NCBI RefSeq assembly: GCF_002813295.1
Contig: NZ_PHUE01000001.1
Location: 3,844,001-3,908,000 of the forward strand
Length of the DNA: 64,000 nucleotides
Source of the DNA: Flavobacterium sp. 5
Lineage (GTDB): Bacteria; Bacteroidota; Bacteroidia; Flavobacteriales; Flavobacteriaceae
Reading direction: 5' to 3'
Shown here piece after piece: positions 5,966 through 21,646 of the stretch (position 1 is the stretch's first letter; every line of letters begins with the position of its first letter). A program made the position numbers and the translations under genes. Under the pieces are notes generated by a model. The model ran no database searches. It was not told where the DNA came from and saw nothing but the letters and a program-made list of their open reading frames with translations.

Positions 5966-6727
5966 TTATCGAATTGCTTTTACAAACTCGCTAATTTTAC
6001 CTGTTCCTTCTTCTGATAAATGCTTGATAAATGCACTTCCTATAATAGCTCCTTTCGCATATTGTGTGGCTTGGTTGAAAGTTTCGGCATTGTTGATTCC
6101 GAAGCCAATTACTTGAGGGTTTTTTAGATTCATTTTGGCAATGCGTTCAAAGTAAGTTGACTGAGTACTTCCAAAACCAGATTGCGAACCAGTAACACTT
6201 GCAGAACTTACCATATAAATAAATCCGCTGGAAACGCTGTCGATAAAACGAATACGCTCATCTGAAGTTTGTGGTGTAATCAGGAACACATTGATTAACC
6301 CATATCTATCGAAAGTAGCTTTATATTCGTCGGCATAAACATCTACGGGAAGATCAGGAATTATTAAACCATCAATACCAATTTCTGCGCATTTTTTGCA
6401 GAAATTTTCCACACCATATTGCAGCATTGGGTTGAAATATCCCATAATAACAAGTGGAATCTTTACGCTTTTGCGAATGTCTTTTAGCTGATCAAATAAA
6501 ATTTGAGTGGTCATTCCGTTATGTAAAGCCGTTGTTGAACTGGCTTGAATAGTTGGTCCATCTGCCAATGGATCGCTAAATGGTAATCCTATTTCGATCA
6601 TGTCGATACCATTTTTTTCTAAGTCTTGGATGATTTGTACGGTATCATTCAAGTTGGGATATCCAGCTGAAAAGTATATGGAAAGTATCTTTTTGTCTTC
6701 TTGTAATTTTTGACTTATTCTGTTCAT
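5966..6727 (-). CDS. trpA: Tryptophan synthase alpha chain
   Basis: The alpha subunit cleaves indole-3-glycerol phosphate to indole and glyceraldehyde 3-phosphate and passes indole through a tunnel to TrpB. The 253-residue TIM barrel shows the catalytic Glu in MIEIGLPFSDPLADGPTIQ (Glu45) and the second acid (Asp56, the equivalent of Asp60 in the enteric enzyme). The phosphate loops GLIIPDLPVD and SVTGSQSGFG are also present. The ATG at 6727 (MNRISQKL) was chosen; the longer frame from 6832 would overlap the upstream GGCT gene and has no family support. It is the last gene of the trp operon, separated from trpB by a small extra gene and a repeat. Confidence 0.97.
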   Translation of the reverse strand: MNRISQKLQEDKKILSIYFSAGYPNLNDTVQIIQDLEKNGIDMIEIGLPFSDPLADGPTIQASSTTALHNGMTTQILFDQLKDIRKSVKIPLVIMGYFNPMLQYGVENFCKKCAEIGIDGLIIPDLPVDVYADEYKATFDRYGLINVFLITPQTSDERIRFIDSVSSGFIYMVSSASVTGSQSGFGSTQSTYFERIAKMNLKNPQVIGFGINNAETFNQATQYAKGAIIGSAFIKHLSEEGTGKISEFVKAIR

Positions 6728-6803
6728 TTTAATTTCTGATTTTAGATATTGGATGTGCGATATTTCGATATCAGTACCTAATATTTTATTTTTATTTTCT
6801 AAT

Positions 6804-7124
6804 TTAGATTGCAGCACTATACGCCCACGCATTTTGATTAGATTGCAAATGTACTTCTACACGTTTGTAATGTAATCCTTCATAGAGATCCGTTTGACGA
6901 AGTTCACTTTGCGTTACTTCGTACAAGGTTCCATTAATGGTGTCATTTGAGTTTTCGGTTTCTTTAATAATAGGGTAATGCACGATTCCAAATTCTTCTT
7001 CAATCTGAATTTCGTTTAGTTCATAACCTACTAATGTTTCTGGGGTTCCTTCAAGAATACGACCAAAAAGATCTTGTTGTACATCCTCATGTTGTAAGGT
7101 ACCGTAAGCGAATAATTTTTGCAT
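6804..7124 (-). CDS. Gamma-glutamylcyclotransferase (AIG2-like) family protein
   Basis: A 106-residue protein that begins MQKLFAYGTLQHEDVQ, matching the substrate-binding signature YGTL of the GGCT/AIG2 fold. It continues with TLVGYELNEI and TINGTLYEVTQSELRQTDLYEGLHYKRVEV, where the Glu of YEG is the expected catalytic acid. Members cyclise gamma-glutamyl amines to 5-oxoproline or act on related amides. The ATG at 7124 is chosen; the frame extending to 7271 runs into the repeat element at 7175-7271. It lies between trpB and trpA on the same strand, with no known role in tryptophan synthesis, so it is a passenger of the operon. Confidence 0.85.
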   Translation of the reverse strand: MQKLFAYGTLQHEDVQQDLFGRILEGTPETLVGYELNEIQIEEEFGIVHYPIIKETENSNDTINGTLYEVTQSELRQTDLYEGLHYKRVEVHLQSNQNAWAYSAAI

Positions 7125-7174
7125 AGAATTCAATTTTTGAAAATGTTTTACACTAAATTTTATATATCTCGAAT

Positions 7175-7271
7175 GTGCGTTAGGGATGGCAGTGGAGCTC
7201 TTTTTTGAGGCGATTTTTTTTCGTCTCAAAAAAAGCGGGAACGTACAGCCCGACCCTTGGGGAACGCCCAA
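7175..7271 (-). repeat. Dispersed structured repeat of Flavobacterium type (trpB-GGCT spacer)
   Basis: This stretch is much richer in G and C than its surroundings. On the minus strand it starts TTGGGCGTTCCCCAAGGGTC, contains a long hairpin with arms TTTTTTGAGACGA and TCGCCTCAAAAAA around a T/A-rich loop, and ends CATCCCTAACGCAC. The outer GGGCGTT and AACGC ends can also pair. I recall the same ends bracketing a variable hairpin many times in Flavobacterium genomes, which I cannot verify here. It could be a mobile palindromic element or a conserved RNA such as the Flavo-1 motif. Confidence 0.7.
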
Positions 7272-7280
7272 ATTATTATA

Positions 7281-8462
7281 TTACAATTTGAAATAATCGA
7301 TATAATTGTCTAAATCTTTGTCACCACGCCCTGAAAGGCTGATCACCACAATATCAGTTGGTTTGAATTTTTTCTGATCTAAAACTGCAAAAGCATGCGC
7401 ACTTTCAATCGCAGGAATTATACCTTCTAATTTTGTAAGCTGCAGACCAGCATTCATCGCTTCGTCATCGGTTACTGAAAAGAATTCGCCACGGCCTGTT
7501 TGTGCCAAATGGGCGTGCATAGGACCAACTCCAGGGTAATCAAGACCTGCTGAAATTGAGTAAGGCTCAGTGATTTGACCATCGGGAGTCTGCATCAATA
7601 GGGTTTTGCAACCATGAATAACGCCCACTTTTCCTAATTTACTTGTAGCTGCACTATGACCGCTGTTTACACCTTTTCCAGCAGCTTCGACAGCAATGAT
7701 TCCAACTTCTGGCTCGTGCAAAAAATGATAATATGTTCCTGCAGCGTTACTACCTCCACCAATACAAGCTACTACATAATCTGGGTTTTCGCGTCCTTCT
7801 TTCTCTTTTAACTGCCATTTGATTTCTTCGGAAATAATGCTTTGAAAACGGGTTACCATATCTGGATAAGGATGTGGTCCGATGGCAGATCCGATAATAT
7901 AATGTGTGTCTACAGGGTTGTTGATCCAATCGCGGATGGCCTCATTTGTTGCATCTTTTAGCGTTCGTGAACCGGAAAGTGCCGGACGGACTTCTGCTCC
8001 AAGCATTTTCATGCGGGCAACGTTTGGTGCTTGGCGTGCAATGTCGATTTCGCCCATGTACACGATGCAATCCATGCCCATTAAGGCACAAACCGTTGCT
8101 GTTGCTACTCCGTGCTGACCTGCGCCAGTTTCGGCAATAATTCGTTTTTTGCCTAAACGTTTTGCAACTAATATTTGTCCAATGGTGTTGTTGACTTTGT
8201 GTGCACCTGTATGATTTAAGTCTTCTCTTTTGAGATAGATTTTGGTATTGTATTTTTCTGAAAGTCTTTTAGCAAAGTATAGTGGGCTAGGACGTCCTAC
8301 GTAATCTTTCAGCAGTTGGTCAAACTCTGCTTTAAAGCTTGGCTCAGCTGTGATTTCTAAATATTTCTGGCGTAATTCTTCTACATTTGGATATAACATT
8401 TCGGGAATGTAGGCTCCACCAAATTCACCATAATAGCCTTTTTCGTTAACGTTGTATTGCAT
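7281..8462 (-). CDS. trpB: Tryptophan synthase beta chain
   Basis: TrpB is the PLP enzyme that condenses indole with L-serine to give L-tryptophan. The protein has 393 residues, the normal length. The PLP Schiff-base lysine is Lys89 in LNHTGAHKVNN. Other visible motifs are the catalytic Glu region ETGAGQHGVATA, the phosphate-binding loop CIGGGSNAAG and the C-terminal SLSGRGDKD. The conserved start YGEFGGAYIPEML supports the ATG at 8462. It follows trpF by 11 bp and precedes a repeat element, the GGCT gene and trpA. The sequence shows no damage. Confidence 0.98.
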   Translation of the reverse strand: MQYNVNEKGYYGEFGGAYIPEMLYPNVEELRQKYLEITAEPSFKAEFDQLLKDYVGRPSPLYFAKRLSEKYNTKIYLKREDLNHTGAHKVNNTIGQILVAKRLGKKRIIAETGAGQHGVATATVCALMGMDCIVYMGEIDIARQAPNVARMKMLGAEVRPALSGSRTLKDATNEAIRDWINNPVDTHYIIGSAIGPHPYPDMVTRFQSIISEEIKWQLKEKEGRENPDYVVACIGGGSNAAGTYYHFLHEPEVGIIAVEAAGKGVNSGHSAATSKLGKVGVIHGCKTLLMQTPDGQITEPYSISAGLDYPGVGPMHAHLAQTGRGEFFSVTDDEAMNAGLQLTKLEGIIPAIESAHAFAVLDQKKFKPTDIVVISLSGRGDKDLDNYIDYFKL

Positions 8463-8473
8463 TTTTTTATTTT

Positions 8474-9106
8474 TTATTTATTTATAGTAGTGATGCGATT
8501 AATCGCGTCCGTACATAATTCTATATTTTTTAATCCTGGTTCAATTTCAAATTTACTATTTATATCAATTGCATAAATGGGTAAATTGGTTTTCAAAATT
8601 TCGGTTACAGCATCCAATTCCTCGATTCCAATTCCGCCACTAAGGAAGAAAGGTTTTGTGGATGAATAATTTTTCAATATTTGCCAATCAAATGTTGTTC
8701 CGTTTCCTCCGGGTAATTTTCCTTTGGTGTCAAAAAGAAAATAATCGCAAACGGCTTCGAACGGTTTTAAAACGCTAAAGTCAAAATTCTCGTCAGCCGA
8801 AAAAACTTTGATGATTTCAATTGAAGCTACTAATTTAGTTTTTAATTCTGAACAAAATTCAGGCGATTCATGACCGTGTAATTGTATGGCTTGTAAATTA
8901 TATTTCTCTGTTTTTTTCAAAATTACAGGAATACTTTCGTTAACAAAAACACCAGTTTTTTTAATTGATTTAGGTAATTCTGGCATTGTTCCATCAAAAT
9001 AACGAGCCGATTTTTCCCAGAATATAAAGCCCATATAATCGGGCAGGAGCGAACCTACTTCGAGTATATTGTCGGGATATTTCATTCCGCAGATTTTGAG
9101 TTTCAT
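8474..9106 (-). CDS. trpF: Phosphoribosylanthranilate isomerase
   Basis: TrpF performs the Amadori rearrangement of N-(5-phosphoribosyl)anthranilate to CdRP. The 210-residue TIM barrel opens with MKLKICGMKYPDNI, which carries the catalytic Cys of the KICG motif. The catalytic Asp lies in FLFDTKGKLPGGNGTTFDW, and the phosphate-binding loop is FLSGGIG. The following ELDAVTEI and IDINSKFEIEPGLK blocks match the family end, where the usual Ser-Ser-Gly-Val-Glu is varied to INSKFE. It lies between trpC and trpB on the minus strand; a short 7-bp tandem repeat fills the spacer to trpC. Confidence 0.96.
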   Translation of the reverse strand: MKLKICGMKYPDNILEVGSLLPDYMGFIFWEKSARYFDGTMPELPKSIKKTGVFVNESIPVILKKTEKYNLQAIQLHGHESPEFCSELKTKLVASIEIIKVFSADENFDFSVLKPFEAVCDYFLFDTKGKLPGGNGTTFDWQILKNYSSTKPFFLSGGIGIEELDAVTEILKTNLPIYAIDINSKFEIEPGLKNIELCTDAINRITTINK

Positions 9107-9114
9107 TTTTATTT

Positions 9115-9135
9115 GCTTTGAGCTTTGAGCTTTGA
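9115..9135 (-). repeat. 7-bp tandem repeat (GCTTTGA x3) in trpC-trpF spacer
   Basis: Three head-to-tail copies of GCTTTGA fill part of the 59-bp trpC-trpF spacer and grade into a short imperfect inverted sequence (GGGCTGATTGCCC). The 7-bp unit does not continue into either coding region. Confidence 0.75.
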
Positions 9136-9165
9136 GCTTCGGGCTGATTGCCCATTGCTCAAGGC

Positions 9166-9945
9166 TTATAGCTGATTAATAAAATCAGTAGCGGCTTTAC
9201 CTGCATTATCAGTTTTCATGAAATTTTCTCCAATCAAGAAACCTTTGTATCCGTATGGTTTTAGTTCGTTAATTGCTTCAATTGTACTGATACCGCTTTC
9301 GGAAACTTTTACAAAATCATTTGGAATTTGGTCAGCCAATTGTTTACTGAAGTCCAAACTAACTTCAAATGTTTTTAGGTTTCTGTTATTTACGCCAATC
9401 ATATCTAATGTCGGCATGATTGATTTTTCTAATTCTTCTTGATTATGAACTTCTAATAAAACTTCTAATCCTAAACCTTTGGCAAACTCCGATAAGGATT
9501 TGATTTCCTCACGGGTTAAAACCGCTGCAATTAATAAAATTAAATCAGCCCCGTGTGCTTTGGCTTCTAGGATTTGATATTCATCTACAATAAATTCTTT
9601 ACGTAAAAGGGGAATGTTTACTGAAGCTCTTGCTAATAATAAATCATCCAAAGAACCTCCAAAATACTTTCCATCCGTTAGAACAGAAATTCCGCAAGCA
9701 CCTGCGTCTTCATATCCTTTTACTACTTCTTCTACGGTAAAACCATGATTGATTACTGCTTTTGATGGCGAACGACGTTTGTGCTCGGCAATGATTCCAG
9801 AATTACTGTTTCTTAAATTTTGACTTAATGAAATTGTCTTTTTACCAAAGAAAACAGAAGCTTCTAATTGTGAAACTGGAATGATGGATTTCTTGAGAAT
9901 GACTTCTCTTTTTTTGTCAACGATTATTTTATCTAATATGTTCAT
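9166..9945 (-). CDS. trpC: Indole-3-glycerol-phosphate synthase
   Basis: TrpC closes the indole ring from CdRP with loss of CO2 and water. The 259-residue TIM barrel has the typical start MNILDKIIVDKKREV, the catalytic lysine region IIAEHKRRSPSKAVI, the second catalytic lysine in LLRKEFIVDEYQI, and the catalytic Glu in VLLEVHNQEEL. The C-terminal phosphate-binding blocks VSESGIST and GFLIGENFMKTDN are also present. Full length and undamaged. It lies in the trp operon between the methyltransferase-like gene and trpF. Confidence 0.97.
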   Translation of the reverse strand: MNILDKIIVDKKREVILKKSIIPVSQLEASVFFGKKTISLSQNLRNSNSGIIAEHKRRSPSKAVINHGFTVEEVVKGYEDAGACGISVLTDGKYFGGSLDDLLLARASVNIPLLRKEFIVDEYQILEAKAHGADLILLIAAVLTREEIKSLSEFAKGLGLEVLLEVHNQEELEKSIMPTLDMIGVNNRNLKTFEVSLDFSKQLADQIPNDFVKVSESGISTIEAINELKPYGYKGFLIGENFMKTDNAGKAATDFINQL

Positions 9946-9970
9946 TTTGTATTTGTTTAAAGTTTTCTTT

Positions 9971-10040
9971 GTTTAAAGTTTAAAGTTGTTCATTATTCTG
10001 AATCGTCTTATACAACAACTTTAAGCCTTAAACTTTAAAC
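9971..10040 (-). repeat. Inverted repeat in the methyltransferase-trpC spacer
   Basis: A left arm of GTTTAAAGTTTAAAGTTGTT (9971-9990) faces a right arm at 10014-10040 that reads AACAACTTTAAG-CC-TTAAACTTTAAAC, complementary except for a few bases. The transcript could form a long AU-rich hairpin inside the operon, perhaps affecting mRNA stability between the two genes. Confidence 0.6.
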
Positions 10041-10727
10041 TATTTTTTTATTTCTTTTAATTACCAGCATTTTGTTTCCACCTTTTTGAAACTCATAGTC
10101 AGAAGATTCAATATTCACAATGAAATCAGTATTAAAATGAGTAATGATGTCATCTAAAACTTCCGATTTTAGTGCGTTTAAATTCAATATCGGAAATATT
10201 CTAATTTCTTTGCATATCCGAAGCATTTCGGTAATTGCCTTTATGTGAAAATCTAATCCAAGTTGTGAATATAGAATCAAGAAATGAGAGCTTAAACCCA
10301 AGTCAAATTCTAAATTATTATATGTTGTTCTATTAGGTAACTCATGATAAATATATCTTTCTTGATTTTTCCCTAAGTCAAAATCTTGAATAAAGTTACT
10401 CATTGCCCGCATCCGAATTAGTTCTAATTCTTCAACATTTTTAATATTTTTCCAAATGAAATTTTCTTGATTGGCTTTCATTTGTTCAATAACAGTTTCT
10501 TTAGTTTCATTAATCCTTTGTTTTAATTCACTTTTTGTAAATTGATAAATAGGATCTAATGAAATTACCGTTTTATCAAGTTTTGTCATTTCTGAATTGA
10601 AACTTGCCGGACCATCTCCGAAACTGATAATTTTTAGTTTTAAATCAGAATCTGTCAATTTGAAAATTTGGATATATTCTTCTAAAGTTCGTCCCCAAGG
10701 AACTACATTTTCTAATTCAAAAGCCAT
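10035..10727 (-). CDS. SAM-dependent methyltransferase-like protein in the trp operon
   Basis: A 230-residue protein without signal peptide. The segment LKIISFGDGPASFNSEMTK has the shape of motif I of class I methyltransferases (strand then GxGxxS/A loop). TVISLDPIYQFTKSELKQR follows like motif II, where an acidic residue binds the SAM ribose. A later FDLGLSSHFLILYSQLGLDFHIKAITEMLRICKEIRIFPI resembles motifs IV-V, with a strand then an arginine-rich helix as in a methyltransferase that handles a polar acceptor. Substrate unknown. It begins 3 bp after the trpD stop and precedes trpC, so it is tightly inserted in the operon. The fold call is reasonable; activity is unproven. Confidence 0.75.
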   Translation of the reverse strand: MAFELENVVPWGRTLEEYIQIFKLTDSDLKLKIISFGDGPASFNSEMTKLDKTVISLDPIYQFTKSELKQRINETKETVIEQMKANQENFIWKNIKNVEELELIRMRAMSNFIQDFDLGKNQERYIYHELPNRTTYNNLEFDLGLSSHFLILYSQLGLDFHIKAITEMLRICKEIRIFPILNLNALKSEVLDDIITHFNTDFIVNIESSDYEFQKGGNKMLVIKRNKKIV

Positions 10728-10730
10728 GAC

Positions 10731-11726
10731 TTATATTTTACTAAATTCTTGTAATTTATTCAATGCTTTTAATCCTTTTCCAGAAAATAAACTCTCTTTG
10801 GCTAATTCAAAACTTTCTGAAATTGAACTTCCGTTAACGGTTGCAATTGCCATTGCTGCATTGGCACAAACCACATTATTTTGAGCTTCATTTCCTTTTC
10901 CAGAAATGATATTTAAAAACATCTCTGCCGATTCATCAATGGTTTTCCCTCCTTCAATTTCACTTTGTAACAATTGTCGAACACCAAAATCAGAAGGATT
11001 TAGCATTCCTTCTTTGGTGCTTGTAATAATTTTAGTAGGACAAGTCAAAGATACTTCATCATAACCATCAAGAGAATGCAAAATTGTAAAATTGACAGGG
11101 GTGTTTTGATATAAATAGCCATACATTCTAGCCAACTCAAGATTGAAAACCCCTACCAATTGGTTTTGTGGAAACGATGGATTAACCATAGGTCCCAACA
11201 TATTGAAAAAGGTTTTTACTCCTAATTCTTTTCGAATTGGTCCCACATTTTTCATAGCAGGGTGAAACAATGGCGCATGTAAAATTGCAATTCCAGCCTG
11301 ATCAATACATTTCTCTATGAAATTATTATCATTACTGAATTTAATGCCTAGTTTTTCCATCACGTTGCTAGAACCCGAAATCGATGAAACTCCGTAATTA
11401 CCGTGTTTAGCTACTTTTATTCCTGCTCCTGCTGCAACAAAAGACGCTAAAGTCGAAATATTAAAAGTGTCTTTTCCGTCACCACCTGTACCGCACAAAT
11501 CGATAGTATTGTAATTTGATAAATCCATTCGAATACATAATTCTAAAAGGGCCTCTCTAAATCCCGCCAATTCTTCAATACTAATGCTTCGCATCATATA
11601 TACGGTTAAAAATGCCGAAATCTGGCTCGGATTATAGTTCCCGCTAGAGATATTTACCAATACATTTTTGGCTTCTTCCTTAGAAAGTATTTCGTGATTG
11701 ATTAATCTGTTTAATATATTTTTCAT
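10731..11726 (-). CDS. trpD: Anthranilate phosphoribosyltransferase
   Basis: TrpD joins anthranilate to PRPP, the second step of the pathway. The 331-residue protein shows the glycine-rich PRPP loop DLCGTGGDGKDTFNIST (Gly79-Gly84 core) and the anthranilate/PRPP-binding block AKHGNYGVSSISGSSNVMEKLG. GIAILHAPLFHPAMKNVGPIRKELGVKTFFNMLGPMVNP and LDGYDEVSLT also match the family. The N-terminal helical domain includes LTVYMMRSISIEELAGF. It lacks the GATase fusion seen in some bacteria; trpG is a separate gene two positions upstream. Confidence 0.98.
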   Translation of the reverse strand: MKNILNRLINHEILSKEEAKNVLVNISSGNYNPSQISAFLTVYMMRSISIEELAGFREALLELCIRMDLSNYNTIDLCGTGGDGKDTFNISTLASFVAAGAGIKVAKHGNYGVSSISGSSNVMEKLGIKFSNDNNFIEKCIDQAGIAILHAPLFHPAMKNVGPIRKELGVKTFFNMLGPMVNPSFPQNQLVGVFNLELARMYGYLYQNTPVNFTILHSLDGYDEVSLTCPTKIITSTKEGMLNPSDFGVRQLLQSEIEGGKTIDESAEMFLNIISGKGNEAQNNVVCANAAMAIATVNGSSISESFELAKESLFSGKGLKALNKLQEFSKI

Positions 11727-11740
11727 TTTTTTAAAAGTTG

Positions 11741-11769
11741 CTAAGACTCTAAGTGTCTAAGATTCTAAG
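11741..11769 (-). repeat. 8-bp tandem repeat (CTAAGNNT) upstream of trpD
   Basis: About 3.6 head-to-tail units of the form CTAAGNNT fill the spacer between the GNAT gene and trpD. A related CTAAGATT/CTTAGAATC pattern recurs in the pta-ackA spacer (37216-37315), so the unit appears to be dispersed. Confidence 0.65.
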
Positions 11770-11825
11770 TTTTTTTTATCTACAAATTTTGACTGCTAAC
11801 TAAATACTGAAAACTGCCTGCTTAT

Positions 11826-12233
11826 TTAATGTTCATTTCCTTGATAAATCCACATTGGTTCTGTGTTTCCTGCTCGCTCAAAACCATTTTTTTTATAAAA
11901 ATCAACTGATTTTCCATCAGCTGTTAGCATTTGCATGTGAAAGTCACGATATTTCTCTTGCATTTTATCTAAAATCATTTTCCCAATTCCTTTTCCTTGA
12001 TATTCTGGTAGTACTAATAAATGAGGATAATAAACAGTTAAATGACCATCTGAAATTGCATTTCCAAGTCCAATCAGTTTTTTATTTTTCCAAGCCGTAA
12101 TTAGTGTTTCAGAATTTAGTAAACCATTGTATAATTGAGTTGGTTTTTCTGCGGAACTCCAATTATTAGCTTTGTAAAGGATTAATATATCATCAATATT
12201 GATGTCTTTAGTTTCGGAAATAATAATATTCAT
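11826..12233 (-). CDS. GNAT family N-acetyltransferase in the trp operon
   Basis: A 135-residue single-domain GNAT protein. The acetyl-CoA loop is QGKGIG (residues 79-84) after the strand TVYYPHLLVLPEYQ, followed by GKMILDKMQEKY and then the C-terminal strand with LTADGKSVDFYKKNGFERAG, the usual motif B. The short N-terminal DILILYKANNWSSAEKP matches a common small subfamily. The acceptor is unknown. It begins 6 bp after the cytochrome-c gene and precedes trpD, so it is co-transcribed with the trp genes without an obvious role in the pathway. Confidence 0.9.
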   Translation of the reverse strand: MNIIISETKDINIDDILILYKANNWSSAEKPTQLYNGLLNSETLITAWKNKKLIGLGNAISDGHLTVYYPHLLVLPEYQGKGIGKMILDKMQEKYRDFHMQMLTADGKSVDFYKKNGFERAGNTEPMWIYQGNEH

Positions 12234-12239
12234 CTCGAG

Positions 12240-13076
12240 TTATATTTTCTTTTTATGTTCTGACATGTATTTCAAATAATCAACAATTTCTTGTGATTGT
12301 TGTTTTGTAATTCCTAATGTTGGCATTTTTACTTTATGTCTAAAAGATGCTGGATTTACAATATAATCGACCAATTCAGTTTCTTTCCAATACTCAGTAA
12401 CGTTTTTGGGATAATTTAATTCAGGTCCCATTTCTCCTCCAATTCCGTTTATGGCATGACAGGTAATGCAATATTTTTGATATAATACAAAACCTTTTGT
12501 TGCTTTTTCATCGTTTTTTGGCTCCAAAGCATTGTTAATATTTTTTGATACCAATTGAAACTTAATCACATTATACGGCCATTTGTATTCTTGATTAGTT
12601 GTTGCAATCGATGATGTGTAAACCAAATAAAAAGGATCAGCATTCATCTCGTTTCCATTTTTGATAATCCTTTCCCAATTAGAATCTTTTGGCGCATCGG
12701 CATCTTTAAACGCCAGATATGGTTTGGCTTGTAAAAATAATTCAAGAGGCATTTCAGGTTTGTATCCATCAATACATTCGAAAATAATTACTGTATTTTT
12801 GACATCTATTTTAGATAAATCAATTTCCCTTTTTATAATGTTCACTGCGTTTACAGCTTGATATTTTTTTGTTTTATGATAAACAGGATCATTGTTAACA
12901 GTTACCAAAGTGTCTTTTCCTAATTTGTTTTTCTTTTGTAAATCCAATAAATCCAAAATAATTTTGGGTTGGACAATAATTACTGATTCTATTTTTTGCT
13001 CTTTCTTTTGGTCACAGGAAATTAAACCTAAAATAGATACACAAATAAAGACAAGATAGATTTTGGTTGCTTTCAT
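12240..13076 (-). CDS. Lipoprotein with C-terminal cytochrome c domain
   Basis: A 278-residue exported lipoprotein, started at the ATG at 13076 because that gives a clean lipoprotein signal peptide (KATKIYLVFICVSILGLISC, lipidated Cys21); ten more residues upstream would come from the repeat region. The C-terminal part is a c-type cytochrome: haem-attachment motif CITCH at residues 203-207, then the downstream KMPTLGITKQQSQEIVDYLKYM, whose Met is the probable sixth haem ligand. The middle section (roughly 40-180), with ECIDGYKPEMPLELFL and PYLAFKDADAPKDSNW, loosely resembles a molybdopterin-oxidoreductase-like beta domain. That is uncertain. An electron carrier inside a trp operon is unexpected. 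Confidence 0.85.
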   Translation of the reverse strand: MKATKIYLVFICVSILGLISCDQKKEQKIESVIIVQPKIILDLLDLQKKNKLGKDTLVTVNNDPVYHKTKKYQAVNAVNIIKREIDLSKIDVKNTVIIFECIDGYKPEMPLELFLQAKPYLAFKDADAPKDSNWERIIKNGNEMNADPFYLVYTSSIATTNQEYKWPYNVIKFQLVSKNINNALEPKNDEKATKGFVLYQKYCITCHAINGIGGEMGPELNYPKNVTEYWKETELVDYIVNPASFRHKVKMPTLGITKQQSQEIVDYLKYMSEHKKKI

Positions 13077-13095
13077 TGTTTTTAATACAATGTAC

Positions 13096-13116
13096 AGACG
13101 TTGCATTGCAACGTCT
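13096..13116. repeat. REP-like perfect palindrome between trpG and the cytochrome gene
   Basis: Arms AGACGTTGCA (13096-13105) and TGCAACGTCT (13107-13116) flank a single T. I recall the same core (GAGACGTTGCA) as a dispersed palindrome in Bacteroidetes genomes, which cannot be checked here. It ends directly at the trpG stop codon (13117-13119). Confidence 0.7.
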
Positions 13117-13683
13117 CTACGAATTTACCCAATTTTCTAACATCTTTTTTCCATTAGGTGTCAAAACACTTTCCGGATGAAATTGAACACCTCTTACATC
13201 GTATGTTTTATGTCTCAAAGACATAACCTGACCGTTTTCGTCAAAAGAAGTGGCTTCCAAAACATCTGGTAAGTTAGTATCAACTACCCAGGAATGGTAA
13301 CGGCCAACTTCAAATTCGTTTCCTAATCCTTCGAATAACAACTCGTCATCTACTACGGTTTTTACCATTGTAGCTACACCATGATATACTTTATCCAAAT
13401 TTGAAAGCGTCCCTCCAAAAACTTCTCCAATAGCCTGTTGACCAAGACACACTCCGAAAATACTTTTGGTTGGTGCGTATTTTGAAATTACTGCTTTCAA
13501 TAATCCAGCCTCATCTGGTATTCCAGGTCCAGGCGAAAGTAAAATTTTATCGAAAACTGAGATTTCGTCAATATCAAATTCGTCGTTTCTATAAACGGTT
13601 ACTTCGCAATTTAAATCTTCCAGATAGTGTACCAAATTATAAGTGAAACTATCGTAATTGTCTATAACTAATATTTTTTTCAT
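13117..13683 (-). CDS. trpG: Anthranilate synthase component II (glutamine amidotransferase)
   Basis: TrpG supplies ammonia from glutamine to TrpE. The 188-residue class I glutamine amidotransferase shows the start KKILVIDNYDSFTYNLVHYL, the oxyanion region LLSPGPGIPDEAG, the nucleophile Cys79 in FGVCLGQQAIGEVFGG, and the catalytic His-Glu pair in VRGVQFHPESVLT. The full triad and the usual length indicate an active enzyme. It is a stand-alone subunit and may also serve 4-amino-4-deoxychorismate synthase, as in many bacteria; no pabB gene is visible here. It is separated from trpE by two unrelated genes. Confidence 0.97.
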   Translation of the reverse strand: MKKILVIDNYDSFTYNLVHYLEDLNCEVTVYRNDEFDIDEISVFDKILLSPGPGIPDEAGLLKAVISKYAPTKSIFGVCLGQQAIGEVFGGTLSNLDKVYHGVATMVKTVVDDELLFEGLGNEFEVGRYHSWVVDTNLPDVLEATSFDENGQVMSLRHKTYDVRGVQFHPESVLTPNGKKMLENWVNS

Positions 13684-13692
13684 GATGCTTTT

Positions 13693-14142
13693 TTAATTTT
13701 TTTCTCGAACGTATTTTTCGATAATAATTCTGTCTACTCCTAATTTTTCTACTTTTTCAACTCCTTTTTGAATAAGTGTATCGTTTTTGATTTTCACTAC
13801 AAACTCAAATGTATTGTTTTCCCAAGCACGATTATTAAAATATTCTAAGCTTTCTGTGTAAACGCTATCTTTTAGAGTATACTTTCCGCCTCCTCCAAAA
13901 AATACTGCTGAACTGTCTTTTCCGTTATTTAAATCATGATTAAAAAAAGCAAAATGCGAATCATTTAGAATTTTAATCATTTTGGTTTTTGGATTAAAAG
14001 TTGAAAAAGTAGAATCTTTTTGAGTTGCTGTTGCCGAAACCAATCGCCAAGTTCCTTCTATAGCATTTTGTTCTTTATTTGAATTACAAGCTGAAATTGC
14101 AATTATTAAAATTAAAACGGATATTATTTTTTTTAGATTCAT
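13693..14142 (-). CDS. Lipocalin-like lipoprotein
   Basis: A 149-residue lipoprotein: signal peptide KKIISVLILIIAISAC with lipobox ISAC (Cys19). The mature part opens IEGTWRLVSATATQKD and continues with alternating strands (KMIKILNDSHFAFFNHDL, GKYTLKDSVYTESLEYF, FEFVVKIKNDTLIQKG), ending IIEKYVRE. The GTWrL start and the strand pattern match small lipocalin-like or DUF4488-type proteins that bind hydrophobic ligands in the envelope. Function unknown. It is located between trpG and the tautomerase gene in the trp operon. Confidence 0.75.
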   Translation of the reverse strand: MNLKKIISVLILIIAISACNSNKEQNAIEGTWRLVSATATQKDSTFSTFNPKTKMIKILNDSHFAFFNHDLNNGKDSSAVFFGGGGKYTLKDSVYTESLEYFNNRAWENNTFEFVVKIKNDTLIQKGVEKVEKLGVDRIIIEKYVREKN

Positions 14143-14147
14143 TTTTT

Positions 14148-14537
14148 TTAAATATTTACTTTATAATTTAAAGATAGTTCATCTCCGCTTTTTCCTCTGA
14201 TTCCCCAATTGTGTTTTGGAGTTTCAAAAATGGTTATTTCAAGATCCATAGGAGTTATTTGTAACTGATTTTCAAATTTTTCAAATAAAAATTGATATAG
14301 TTTCTTTTTAGCTTCAATACTTCTGCCTTCAAAAGCGTTGATTTCAATGATTGTATGTTTTGTTGTTCTCCCTTCAAAATAATAAAAGCTATCTTCTTCT
14401 ATATAAATAAATCGATGTGCTTTTTTTTCTTTTGGATACTCAAAAGCTTCAAACATGCATTCTTGAATTATCGTCGAAACGGTTTCTCTAATTTGGTGCA
14501 ATTCATTTTTTATTCCAAAAATCTTAATTTGTCCCAT
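14148..14537 (-). CDS. Tautomerase family protein
   Basis: A 129-residue member of the Tautomerase_2 group, recognised from KKAHRFIYIEEDSFYYFEGR, HTIIEINAFEGRSIEAKKKLYQFLFEKFENQL, MDLEITIFETPKHNWGIRGKSGDEL and LNYKVNI. Tautomerases of the 4-OT/MIF superfamily use the N-terminal proline as general base. Here the residue after the initiator Met is Gly (MGQIKIFG), not Pro, so either the reaction differs or catalysis does not use Pro1. The start is well supported: the ATG lies 11 bp after the trpE stop and no alternative ATG-Pro is near. It is the second structural gene of the trp operon. Confidence 0.88.
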   Translation of the reverse strand: MGQIKIFGIKNELHQIRETVSTIIQECMFEAFEYPKEKKAHRFIYIEEDSFYYFEGRTTKHTIIEINAFEGRSIEAKKKLYQFLFEKFENQLQITPMDLEITIFETPKHNWGIRGKSGDELSLNYKVNI

Positions 14538-14548
14538 TTTCTTTAGTG

Positions 14549-15949
14549 TTAAATTGTTTCAGCTAAATCTAAAGCAGTATTTAATGCTCTTAGTTTATTA
14601 TATACTTCCTGCATTTCGTTTTCTTCATCAGAACTTGCAACTATTCCAGCTCCAGCCTGTGAATGTAATTGGTGATTTTTACTCAGGAAAGTTCGAATCA
14701 TAATAGCGTGATTAAAATTACCTTCAAAATCCATAAAACCAATAGCACCACCATAAAAATTACGATTTGTTTTTTCGTAATCTTCTATCAATTGCATCGC
14801 TCTGTGTTTTGGAGCTCCGCTCAAAGTTCCAGCTGGAAAAGTATCAGCAACTACTTGCATAGTTGTTGCTTTTTCGTGTAAATGACCAGTTACTTTCGAA
14901 ACCAGATGGATAACATGGGAGAAAAACTGAACTTCTCTGTACTTTTCAACATTTACATCATGTCCGTTTCTGCTTAAATCATTTCGAGCCAAATCAACCA
15001 ACATCACATGTTCGCTATTTTCTTTTTTGTCTTCAGATAATTTTTTGGCAAGAACAGCATCTTTTTCATCATCACCAGTTCTTTTAAAAGTTCCTGCAAT
15101 TGGGTGAATTTCAGCTTTACGGTTTTTGACAATAATTTGAGCTTCTGGTGAAGAACCAAAAATTTTGAAATCACCATAATCAAAGAAGAATAGGTAAGGG
15201 GATGGGTTGATGCTTCTTAAAGCTCTATAAACATTGAATTCATCACCTTTAAATCCTTGAGTAAATCTTCTGGATAAAACCAATTGAAACACATCACCAC
15301 GGAAACAATGCTTTTTAGCCAAAGCTACATTTTGCTTAAATTCTTCGTCTGTTAGATTTGAAAAACCTTCACCTTCTTTGCTAAATTTATACGAAGCGAT
15401 ATTTCTGGACTGTAAAAGTTGCTCAATCTCTGAAATGTTGTTTTTTCCATCAAGACTATGACAGAAAATATAAGCTTCATTTTTGAAATGATTGATAGCG
15501 ATGATGTTTTGGTACACCGCATAATACACATCTGGAATCGAATTACTGTTTTCTTTTTTAGCAATAGTTACTTTTTCAAAATAACGAACGGCATCATAAG
15601 AAATGTAACCAAACAAACCATTATTGATAAACTTAAAATTGTTTTTATCTGATTGAAATTGTCTGGAGAAATCTTCAATGATTTTTGGAATATTGGTATT
15701 GGAATCAATAGCAATTGTTTCAGAAACTCCATCAGGATATGTTTTATAGATGGTTTCGTTTTCGATTTTTATAGAAGCAATCGGATTACAGCACACATAG
15801 GAAAAACTGTTATCGTTTCCATGATAATCGCTACTTTCCAGTAATAAACTATTAGGGAATTTATCTCTGATTTTGAAATAAATACTCACCGGTGTTATTG
15901 TGTCGGCTAGTATTTGTTTGTATTTGGTTTGTAGTTTATAGGTTTCCAT
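14549..15949 (-). CDS. trpE: Anthranilate synthase component I
   Basis: TrpE converts chorismate to anthranilate with ammonia from TrpG. The 466-residue protein has the regulatory N-terminal LLESSDYHGNDNSFSYVC (residues about 35-52). The LLES element is the known tryptophan-binding motif, so feedback inhibition is expected. The chorismate-binding domain shows FGSSPEAQI, HPIAGTFKRTG, EHVMLVDLARNDLSRNG, GTLSGAPKHRAMQLI, YGGAIGFMDFEG and QAGAGIVASSDEENE. It is the first structural gene of the operon, following the leader peptide and attenuator at 16008-16134. The start ATG at 15949 is about 60 bases past the attenuator. Confidence 0.98.
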   Translation of the reverse strand: METYKLQTKYKQILADTITPVSIYFKIRDKFPNSLLLESSDYHGNDNSFSYVCCNPIASIKIENETIYKTYPDGVSETIAIDSNTNIPKIIEDFSRQFQSDKNNFKFINNGLFGYISYDAVRYFEKVTIAKKENSNSIPDVYYAVYQNIIAINHFKNEAYIFCHSLDGKNNISEIEQLLQSRNIASYKFSKEGEGFSNLTDEEFKQNVALAKKHCFRGDVFQLVLSRRFTQGFKGDEFNVYRALRSINPSPYLFFFDYGDFKIFGSSPEAQIIVKNRKAEIHPIAGTFKRTGDDEKDAVLAKKLSEDKKENSEHVMLVDLARNDLSRNGHDVNVEKYREVQFFSHVIHLVSKVTGHLHEKATTMQVVADTFPAGTLSGAPKHRAMQLIEDYEKTNRNFYGGAIGFMDFEGNFNHAIMIRTFLSKNHQLHSQAGAGIVASSDEENEMQEVYNKLRALNTALDLAETI

Positions 15950-16007: not shown

Positions 16008-16040
16008 AAAAAAAAGGCTTGTCGTGATGACAAGCCTTTT
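16008..16040 (-). terminator. trp attenuator (rho-independent hairpin in the leader)
   Basis: Arms GGCTTGTC (16016-16023) and GACAAGCC (16029-16036) enclose a 5-base loop; on the minus strand the stem is followed by eight U (16015-16008). It lies after the Trp-rich leader peptide and before trpE, where an attenuator is expected. Two leader segments can compete with it: AAGCU just past the leader stop can pair with GGCUU of the first arm, and GUCGUGA at the leader stop is complementary to UCACGAC across the loop and second arm. Confidence 0.88.
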
Positions 16041-16077
16041 ATATTTATAGTTTCAAATTATACTATAGGAGCTTAGT

Positions 16078-16134
16078 TCACGACGACTGACGTAAATTAT
16101 TCCACCACCAAGTATTGTTTGTTATTGTTATCAT
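16078..16134 (-). CDS. trpL: trp operon leader peptide with three consecutive Trp codons
   Basis: An 18-codon frame on the minus strand encodes MITITNNTWWWNNLRQSS, start ATG at 16134-16132 and stop TGA at 16080-16078. The three tandem TGG codons lie at 16110-16102. It sits 20 bases downstream of a consensus promoter and 38 bases upstream of the attenuator hairpin. In the classical mechanism, a ribosome stalled at the Trp codons for lack of charged tRNA-Trp leaves the downstream strand free to form an antiterminator; a ribosome that reaches the stop covers that strand, so the terminator forms. Geometry fits: the antiterminator strand starts within a few bases of the stop codon. Confidence 0.93.
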   Translation of the reverse strand: MITITNNTWWWNNLRQSS

Positions 16135-16153
16135 ATTGTTTTTCTGTTGAATG

Positions 16154-16184
16154 CAAATATATAAATGATATTTGTTTTGACAAA
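16154..16184 (-). promoter_or_regulatory. trp operon promoter, TTTG-N19-TATATTTG
   Basis: On the minus strand a -33 TTTG (16184-16181) is followed after exactly 19 bases by a -7 box TATATTTG (16161-16154). This is a full match to the Bacteroidetes sigma-A (RpoD) consensus TTTG-N17-23-TAnnTTTG. Transcription should start near 16147, giving a leader of about 13 bases ahead of trpL. Confidence 0.88.
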
Positions 16185-20645: not shown

Positions 20646-21646
20646 AACCCGTTGGGTGCAATTAAATTATTTGATTTTTAATATTATTTATTGGTCTGTC
20701 AAATATAAATTTATTGACATATTGTATTAATGTTAATGATGCTATTTTTGCCAATATTCTAGTTTTAAATCCTTCAAAAGTTTTTGCATAATTTCTTCTG
20801 ATTAAAAATTGGTCGCATAATTGAGAAAATAATGTTTCGATTCTTTTTCTTGATTTTCTAAAAATATACGGTTGTGGTTTATAATTTTTTTGATTAATTC
20901 GTTTTGGTGTTTCCAATTTGATATTTACTGTTTGAAATAAATCCAATTGAATCGTTTCTGACAGATATCCTCTATCCCCAAGAATCACACAATCAGACAT
21001 TTGTTGTTTTATGTTTTTTAAAAAATTTACATCATGAACTTCTGCTTTTGTAATATCTAATGAATGAAAAACTCCAGTAACTGAACAAACTCCATGAAGT
21101 TTATAACCATAAAACCAGCTGTTTTGAGAAGCACAAAATCCTTTTGTAGGTGCAGTTTCAAATTCATTTTTACAGATTTTGATTCGGTTATGACGAGAAA
21201 ATTTACAGATTTCTAATGGCATGCTATCCACAATAAAATAATCTTCAAAATCAAGAAAATAAGATGCTAGTTTAATTCTAATTTCTTCAGAAAATAAAAA
21301 CAATTTCCTCCTTCTTTTATTGAATTGACTTCGTTCTATTAGATTTGGAATTTCATTAGAATTTAGCTGCTTGAAAAGTGAATTTTCGCTGTCAATTGAC
21401 ATAAATTCAGCGGTTAAACTCAATGCAAAAACTTCTAAATCAGACATTTTATCTTTTCTTCCGATACCTGATTTGAATTCTAATTCACAATTCAACGAAC
21501 TTATAACTTCTAAAACTCTTAGATAATTTTTTACTATATTTGACATAGATATTGTATTGTTTAGCGACATCAAGATGCTGAATTTTAGTATCTTGAACAA
21601 TATCTAATCCCTATTTTTTACTTCAAATAATTACACCCAACGGGTT
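20646..21646 (-). mobile_element. Complete IS982-family insertion sequence
   Basis: A 1001-bp element bounded by inverted repeats. The left end (20646) reads AACCCGTTGGGTGCAATTA and the right end, reverse-complemented from 21646, reads AACCCGTTGGGTGTAATTA: one mismatch in 19. One intact transposase gene fills it. I could not identify a target-site duplication in the flanks, and no neighbouring gene is interrupted: it lies between the marR promoter and the end of the HAD gene. Confidence 0.9.
20662..21546 (-). CDS. IS982 family transposase
   Basis: A DDE transposase of 294 residues when started at the ATG at 21546 (MSNIVKNYLRVLEV); an in-frame ATG at 21600 would add 18 residues. The three acidic residues are visible in context: Asp in DYFIVDSMPLEICK, Asp in VILGDRGYLSE, and Glu in RKSRKRIETLFSQLCDQF. 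The block KGFCASQNSWFYGYKLHGVCSVTGVFHSL between the first two Asp is a hallmark of the IS982 family. The frame is intact, so the element may still be mobile. Coding starts about 100 bases inside the right inverted repeat and stops close to the left one. Confidence 0.93.
   Translation of the reverse strand: MSNIVKNYLRVLEVISSLNCELEFKSGIGRKDKMSDLEVFALSLTAEFMSIDSENSLFKQLNSNEIPNLIERSQFNKRRRKLFLFSEEIRIKLASYFLDFEDYFIVDSMPLEICKFSRHNRIKICKNEFETAPTKGFCASQNSWFYGYKLHGVCSVTGVFHSLDITKAEVHDVNFLKNIKQQMSDCVILGDRGYLSETIQLDLFQTVNIKLETPKRINQKNYKPQPYIFRKSRKRIETLFSQLCDQFLIRRNYAKTFEGFKTRILAKIASLTLIQYVNKFIFDRPINNIKNQII

Follow-up and report, generated by a model that had tools for sequence, protein, structure and literature searches.

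A Probable Ribosome-Mediated trp Attenuator of the Catalogued RF01692 Family Ahead of trpE in Flavobacterium sp. 5

Introduction

The DNA directly ahead of trpE in Flavobacterium sp. 5 carries a leader that we read, with a probability of roughly 0.92, as a ribosome-mediated transcription attenuator of the trp operon and a member of the RF01692 family. Leader and terminator would together most likely act as a switch through which the trp genes are opened only when tryptophan is short. The analysis started from a single stretch of 64,000 nucleotides, hereafter the window, and was extended to related genomes. Control by attenuation is best known from proteobacteria and actinobacteria, and a work by Lopatovskaya and colleagues from 2010 is said to deal with attenuation in bacteria.

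The preliminary description of the window had proposed ribosome-mediated trp attenuation and took this control as not known to be well described in Bacteroidetes. Support was indeed found for a trp attenuator whose leader carries Trp codons (84/84 regions of the genus), but it is not new to Bacteroidetes: the leader is an ordinary example of an already catalogued family, RF01692, which was published in 2010 and has been mentioned for Flavobacterium psychrophilum. Weinberg et al. (2010; PMC2864571) give Bacteroid-trp in their Table 1; the available part of the main text does not mention tryptophan. As far as the accessible portions of two further papers go, a Bacteroid-Trp RNA upstream of the F. 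psychrophilum trp operon was compared with the E. coli leader (PMC6414381), clues for leader-peptide attenuation were reported ahead of amino-acid operons of the same species, and expression was confirmed for five Rfam cis-regulatory predictions (PMC9723704). Among the titles and the beginnings of abstracts surveyed, mostly from outside the subscription literature, no paper that puts trp attenuation in Bacteroidetes to an experimental test was noticed.

The trp Leader and Its Gene Cluster

The features of the locus are collected in Table 1. The trp gene cluster begins with trpE, whose closest relatives with named records belong to Flavobacterium and are 95% identical. It continues with a tautomerase-like gene, a gene of unknown function, trpG, a cytochrome c-like gene, a GNAT gene, trpD and a second unknown, followed by trpC, trpF, trpB, a GGACT-like gene and trpA, which makes a full trp gene set; the names trpG, trpD and trpB were given from Pfam domains and neighbourhood. 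Between 6804 and 15949 (minus strand), six genes without an evident role in tryptophan synthesis are mixed among the trp genes, namely the tautomerase-like, cytochrome c-like, GNAT and GGACT-like genes and two without a Pfam match.

Two further observations concern the surroundings. A match to Flavo-1 (RF01705) at 7162-7259 (plus strand) lies within the cluster, next to trpB and the GGACT-like gene. Because the genome holds at least 115 Flavo-1 matches on both strands, at least 109 of them above the cut-off (among 150 candidates scored), Flavo-1 looks like a repeat dispersed through the genome and not like a lone small RNA gene; matches in either orientation are noted in the accessible part of PMC9723704. 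At 20662-21600 (minus strand) lies a transposase-looking ORF, of the IS982 kind by eye.

Table 1. Features of the trp leader region and its gene cluster, in window positions
Feature	Position	Strand	Basis and details
trp gene cluster	5966..15949	-	Read as a single operon from gene order and strand
trpE (anthranilate synthase component I)	14549..15949	-	Pfam Anth_synt_I_N and Chorismate_bind; first gene downstream of the leader
Intrinsic terminator	16008..16040	-	AAAAGGCUUGUC / AUCAC / GACAAGCCUUUU, U-tract to 16008; fold and terminator-site scan
Candidate antiterminator, two nested helices	16021..16084	-	Outer helix GUCGUGA (16084-16078, includes the stop codon) : UCACGAC (16027-16021, terminator loop and start of 3' arm); inner helix UAAGCU (16075-16070) : GGCUUG (16036-16031, terminator 5' arm); pairing tests, comparison and folding
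RF01692 Bacteroid-trp match	16029..16154	-	Model 1-131 of 131; 76.7 bits, gathering score 49
Leader hairpin tip	16077..16096	-	UUUACG (16096-16091) : CGUGAA (16082-16077); MFE fold
Predicted leader ORF	16078..16134	-	MITITNNTWWWNNLRQSS, 18 codons; ATG at 16134, stop UGA 16080-16078; counterparts in 84/84 genus regions
TGG TGG TGG, presumed sensor	16102..16110	-	WWW in 78/84 genus leaders and 0/1680 shuffles
Putative promoter, Bacteroidetes -33/-7 type	16154..16184	-	TTTG 16184-16181, 19-nt spacer, TATATTTG 16161-16154; sequence and genus motif count

The frame for the 18-residue leader peptide with three consecutive TGG codons ahead of trpE, as first described, was found in its place on the minus strand, and so were the other elements of that description. 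The RF01692 match (E 3.5e-10) is the only one in the genome and lies directly ahead of trpE; its score above the cut-off and its position ahead of trp genes in a member of the Bacteroidetes place the leader within the family.

The promoter, which had been taken for a full consensus promoter, has the elements of the Bacteroidetes consensus but finds no support as a sigma-70 site, since the region contains 4 sigma-70 promoter-like sites where 3.3 are expected, and a sigma-70 promoter was therefore rejected. Spaced motifs of the type TTTG-N19-TATATTTG precede 34 of the 82 genus leaders and are found in 13 of 1640 shuffles. In the accessible part of PMC9723704, the -7 box of sigma-A in F. psychrophilum is given as TAnnTTTG.

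Conservation Ahead of trpE

The survey of conservation started from TrpE and was independent of the RNA model. From 121 genomes of the genus, the 84 with a TrpE at E <= 1e-100 (the window included) were kept and the other 37 left out. From 198 genomes of the phylum, 170 had a TrpE at E <= 1e-50, and the upstream DNA was fetched for 40 of them: all 35 members of the class outside the genus, including nine of the same family, and 5 chosen by hand among the higher-scoring of the 125 beyond the class. Upstream regions and their leaders are numbered with the prefix L.

A short ORF with consecutive Trp codons is present in all 84 trpE upstream regions of the genus, as opposed to 9 of 1680 dinucleotide shuffles. 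The predicted leader thus shows what is expected of an attenuator, a short conserved frame in which codons for the regulated amino acid follow one another. The preliminary description had called for a comparison of these regions and would have counted loss of the Trp codons against itself; with the run kept in 84/84, the reading has withstood that challenge. Nine of the 84 regions (L100-L108) precede a divergent TrpE (43-52% identical), and RF01692 finds no match in any of these nine at E <= 0.01. Outside the genus, a leader with consecutive Trp codons precedes trpE in 37 of 40 regions vs 15 of 800 shuffles, and in 39 of 40 vs 25 of 800 once Trp-X-Trp is allowed, a relaxation that was chosen after the Trp-Leu-Trp of L150 and L151 had been seen. 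Even under this relaxed definition, L174 has no Trp leader. Beyond the class, four of the five regions carry one.

The RF01692 model detects only a minority of these leaders, as its low match counts indicate. Among the 40 regions outside the genus, 6 reach the gathering score and 7 an E <= 0.01. A whole-genome scan at E <= 0.001 with stricter filters found the family in 8 of those 40 genomes and in 30 of 296 overall; with stricter filters, it was found in 25 of 60 relatives. Where the model does match, trpE is nearly always near: a TrpE relative accompanies the leader at 52 of the 53 loci fetched for RF01692 matches (window included), lying about 1.25 kb away in L112. The exception is L024 (genome G020), in which the leader precedes a gene read by eye as trpB, on a contig other than that of the genome's trpE; the latter has its own leaders, the tandem pair L105.

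Two Trp-codon leaders in tandem ahead of trpE were observed in L105, L107 and L025, each followed by a terminator-like hairpin (hairpins judged by eye). For Salmonella mgtCBR, attenuators in tandem have been reported in the accessible part of PMC3641672; no tandem trp attenuator was noticed among the papers listed alongside it. In L064, 351 nt separate the leader stop from trpE, and near-identical short repeats (ACAGACGG...ATTTCGT) occupy the DNA between terminator and gene.

Terminator and Proposed Antiterminator

The terminator proposed at first, an 8-bp stem GGCUUGUC/GACAAGCC followed by U8, is borne out; these 8 bp are the G+C-rich part of a stem that reaches 12 bp once the flanking A4/U4 is counted, closed by the loop AUCAC. 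The hairpin lies between the leader and the first gene, as in an attenuator, and it accounts for both terminator-like sites of the region (one per strand), where 0.1 are expected from shuffles. The 151-nt leader as a whole folds at -32.1 kcal/mol (z -4.13), which none of 200 shuffles equals. Among the 74 sequences of class I, counts of which leave out the nine divergent leaders L100-L108, the ninth pair of the terminator stem is A-U in 66 and G-C in 8, while the sixth and last pair of the leader hairpin tip is U-A in 57, C-G in 10 and unpaired in 7. This tip would compete with the antiterminator for the same letters.

Two antiterminator options had been put forward. Both pairings can form, but they fit best as the nested helices of one antiterminator, and the RNA left free downstream of a ribosome on the last Trp codon is predicted to fold with both in a single nested hairpin. 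Among 81 sequences with both anchor motifs of the outer helix, 66 have it with all 7 pairs; an inner mismatch is seen in L054, L057 and L079. Since the helix is nearly invariant within the genus, it yields little covariation there. UCGUGA is kept in all 74 aligned class I sequences, even though six of them end the ORF two codons earlier, at UAG; these six perhaps go back to one event, because one identical stretch is common to all of them. Such a pattern points to a leader end that is under constraint as RNA in class I.

The pairings were tested against shuffles in 116 of 124 regions; L074 (genus), L150, L151, L154, L155, L167, L174 and L175 lacked either a WW leader or a terminator recognised by the script and were left out. 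Pairing of the leader end with the terminator loop and 3' arm reached z < -2 in 70 of 83 genus sequences and 15 of 33 others, and pairing with the terminator 5' arm alone in 1 of 83 and 9 of 33, respectively. The predicted stop-codon helix is therefore supported beyond shuffles in the genus. AAGCU paired with the 5' arm was rejected there as a stand-alone antiterminator on the same count (1/83) and is kept as the inner helix.

In a cross-family test, whose sequences are related and not independent, the pairing of a leader with its own terminator exceeded the mean reached by leaders from other families in 30 of 34 cases (failing in L142, L149, L152 and L163) and beat all of them in 14 of 34; taken singly, the 5' arm exceeded the mean in 17 of 34 and the loop with the 3' arm in 29 of 34. 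Beyond the family, most sequences keep the pairing with other letters. For instance, CUCAGUGA of L172 pairs with UCACUGAG in the loop and 3' arm, and L176 does likewise with one G-U pair. In families f18 and f5, most members use the terminator 5' arm instead.

Proposed Mechanism

Sequence, conservation, foldability and the comparative support of the pairings are matters of observation; from these we infer ribosome stalling, coupling, kinetic competition and a response to tryptophan. Transcription would start just after TATATTTG, and the 18-codon leader would then be translated. On the one hand, when charged tRNA-Trp is plentiful, the ribosome would reach the UGA stop and cover the leader end, so that the terminator hairpin could form and transcription would end before trpE. 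On the other hand, when charged tRNA-Trp is scarce, the ribosome would stall on the TGG codons and cover UUUACG, leaving GUCGUGA-AC-UAAGCU free to capture the emerging 5' arm (GGCUUG) and the terminator loop and 3' arm (UCACGAC); with the antiterminator formed, no terminator would arise and the trp genes would be transcribed. Without translation, the hairpin UUUACG:CGUGAA could hold the leader end.

Folding at intermediate length, with an assumed ribosome footprint of 10 nt past the A-site codon, is consistent with this order of events. The antiterminator stands at 0.00 when the modelled ribosome is placed at the stop codon, and at 0.61 and 0.57 when it is placed at the last Trp codon with 3 and 5 nt of the 3' arm present, respectively; only over this span of 3 to 5 nt does the antiterminator lead. 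At intermediate length and with no ribosome, the antiterminator of the window also forms (0.73, 0.74); at loop+5, likewise with no ribosome, it reaches 0.88 and 0.89 in L172 and L173 and hardly forms in L082, L099 and L137. At full length, whichever ribosome state was modelled for the window, equilibrium gives the terminator 0.99-1.00. On this ground, equilibrium was rejected as the explanation of the switch, and antitermination would thus have to rest on the order of folding.

Alternative Explanations

Leader and terminator could be real and read-through set by a factor of the TRAP, TrpR or T-box type instead of the ribosome, for such trans-acting factors and tRNA-binding RNAs run trp switches in other bacteria. 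This is very improbable here, as the Trp-codon frame is kept in every one of the 84 genus regions and no such regulator was matched. PF02081 (TRAP) and PF01371 (TrpR) have no match in the genome at E <= 0.001, whereas control genomes were positive, and control by either was rejected; for the T-box, the window scan at gathering scores returned only RF01692 and RF01705, and there was no match at the leader up to E 1.

It is equally improbable that the leader acts by translation alone, through reinitiation at trpE or messenger stability, with the hairpin only a partial terminator. Leader ORFs near genes have been proposed to raise translation by reinitiation, but the leader stop lies 128 nt from the trpE start, as opposed to the Bacteroidetes peak of 11-14 bp given in the accessible part of that paper (PMC4833913), and the support for leader-terminator pairing also speaks against control by translation only.

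An accidental Trp-rich ORF adjoining an ordinary terminator has a negligible chance: the bare pattern ATG-N21-TGGTGGTGG (TGG3), which occurs once in the 4.97 Mb genome, at the leader, is no rarer than chance (two occurrences of the reversed control pattern), and chance is countered instead by conservation in the genus (leader in 84/84 vs 9/1680 shuffles, WWW in 78/84 vs 0/1680) and by the RF01692 match (E 3.5e-10).

Possible Attenuation Across the Phylum

Beyond the window, we lean slightly towards a joint reading in which ribosome-mediated trp attenuation is near-universal ahead of trpE across the phylum, goes mostly unseen by RF01692 and has two layouts of the antiterminator, with everything else in the device the same. 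In the first layout, that of the window's family and, from another class, of L172 and L176, the last codons of the leader and its stop would capture the terminator loop and 3' arm; in the second, that of most of f18 and f5, the terminator 5' arm would be captured. If this reading is true, attenuation is the standard control ahead of trpE in a phylum without Shine-Dalgarno sequences, and transcription and translation would have to be coupled there closely enough for attenuation. That Bacteroidetes messengers lack Shine-Dalgarno sequences is stated in the accessible part of PMC9723704.

Comparison with Known Systems

The leader of the window shows no essential difference from RF01692, with which it shares sequence and structure over 131 positions, the place before trp genes, the Trp-codon leader and the terminator 5' arm. 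In the printed consensus structure of the family, this 5' arm is unpaired and neither terminator nor antiterminator is drawn; both are proposed here. Our proposed additions to the catalogued family are the phylum count, the nested antiterminator with the stop codon and the two layouts.

The E. coli trp leader (RF00513, Trp_leader) has no match at the window up to E 1, and weak matches, below the cut-off of 41, occur in leaders L152, L102 and L104. The likeness lies in the design, that is, a leader peptide with tandem Trp codons, alternative hairpins and a terminator with a U-tract, as the E. coli system is generally described. The antiterminator of E. coli trpL takes the 5' side of the terminator, whereas that predicted for the genus Flavobacterium includes the stop codon of the leader and would take the terminator loop and 3' arm in addition to the 5' arm.
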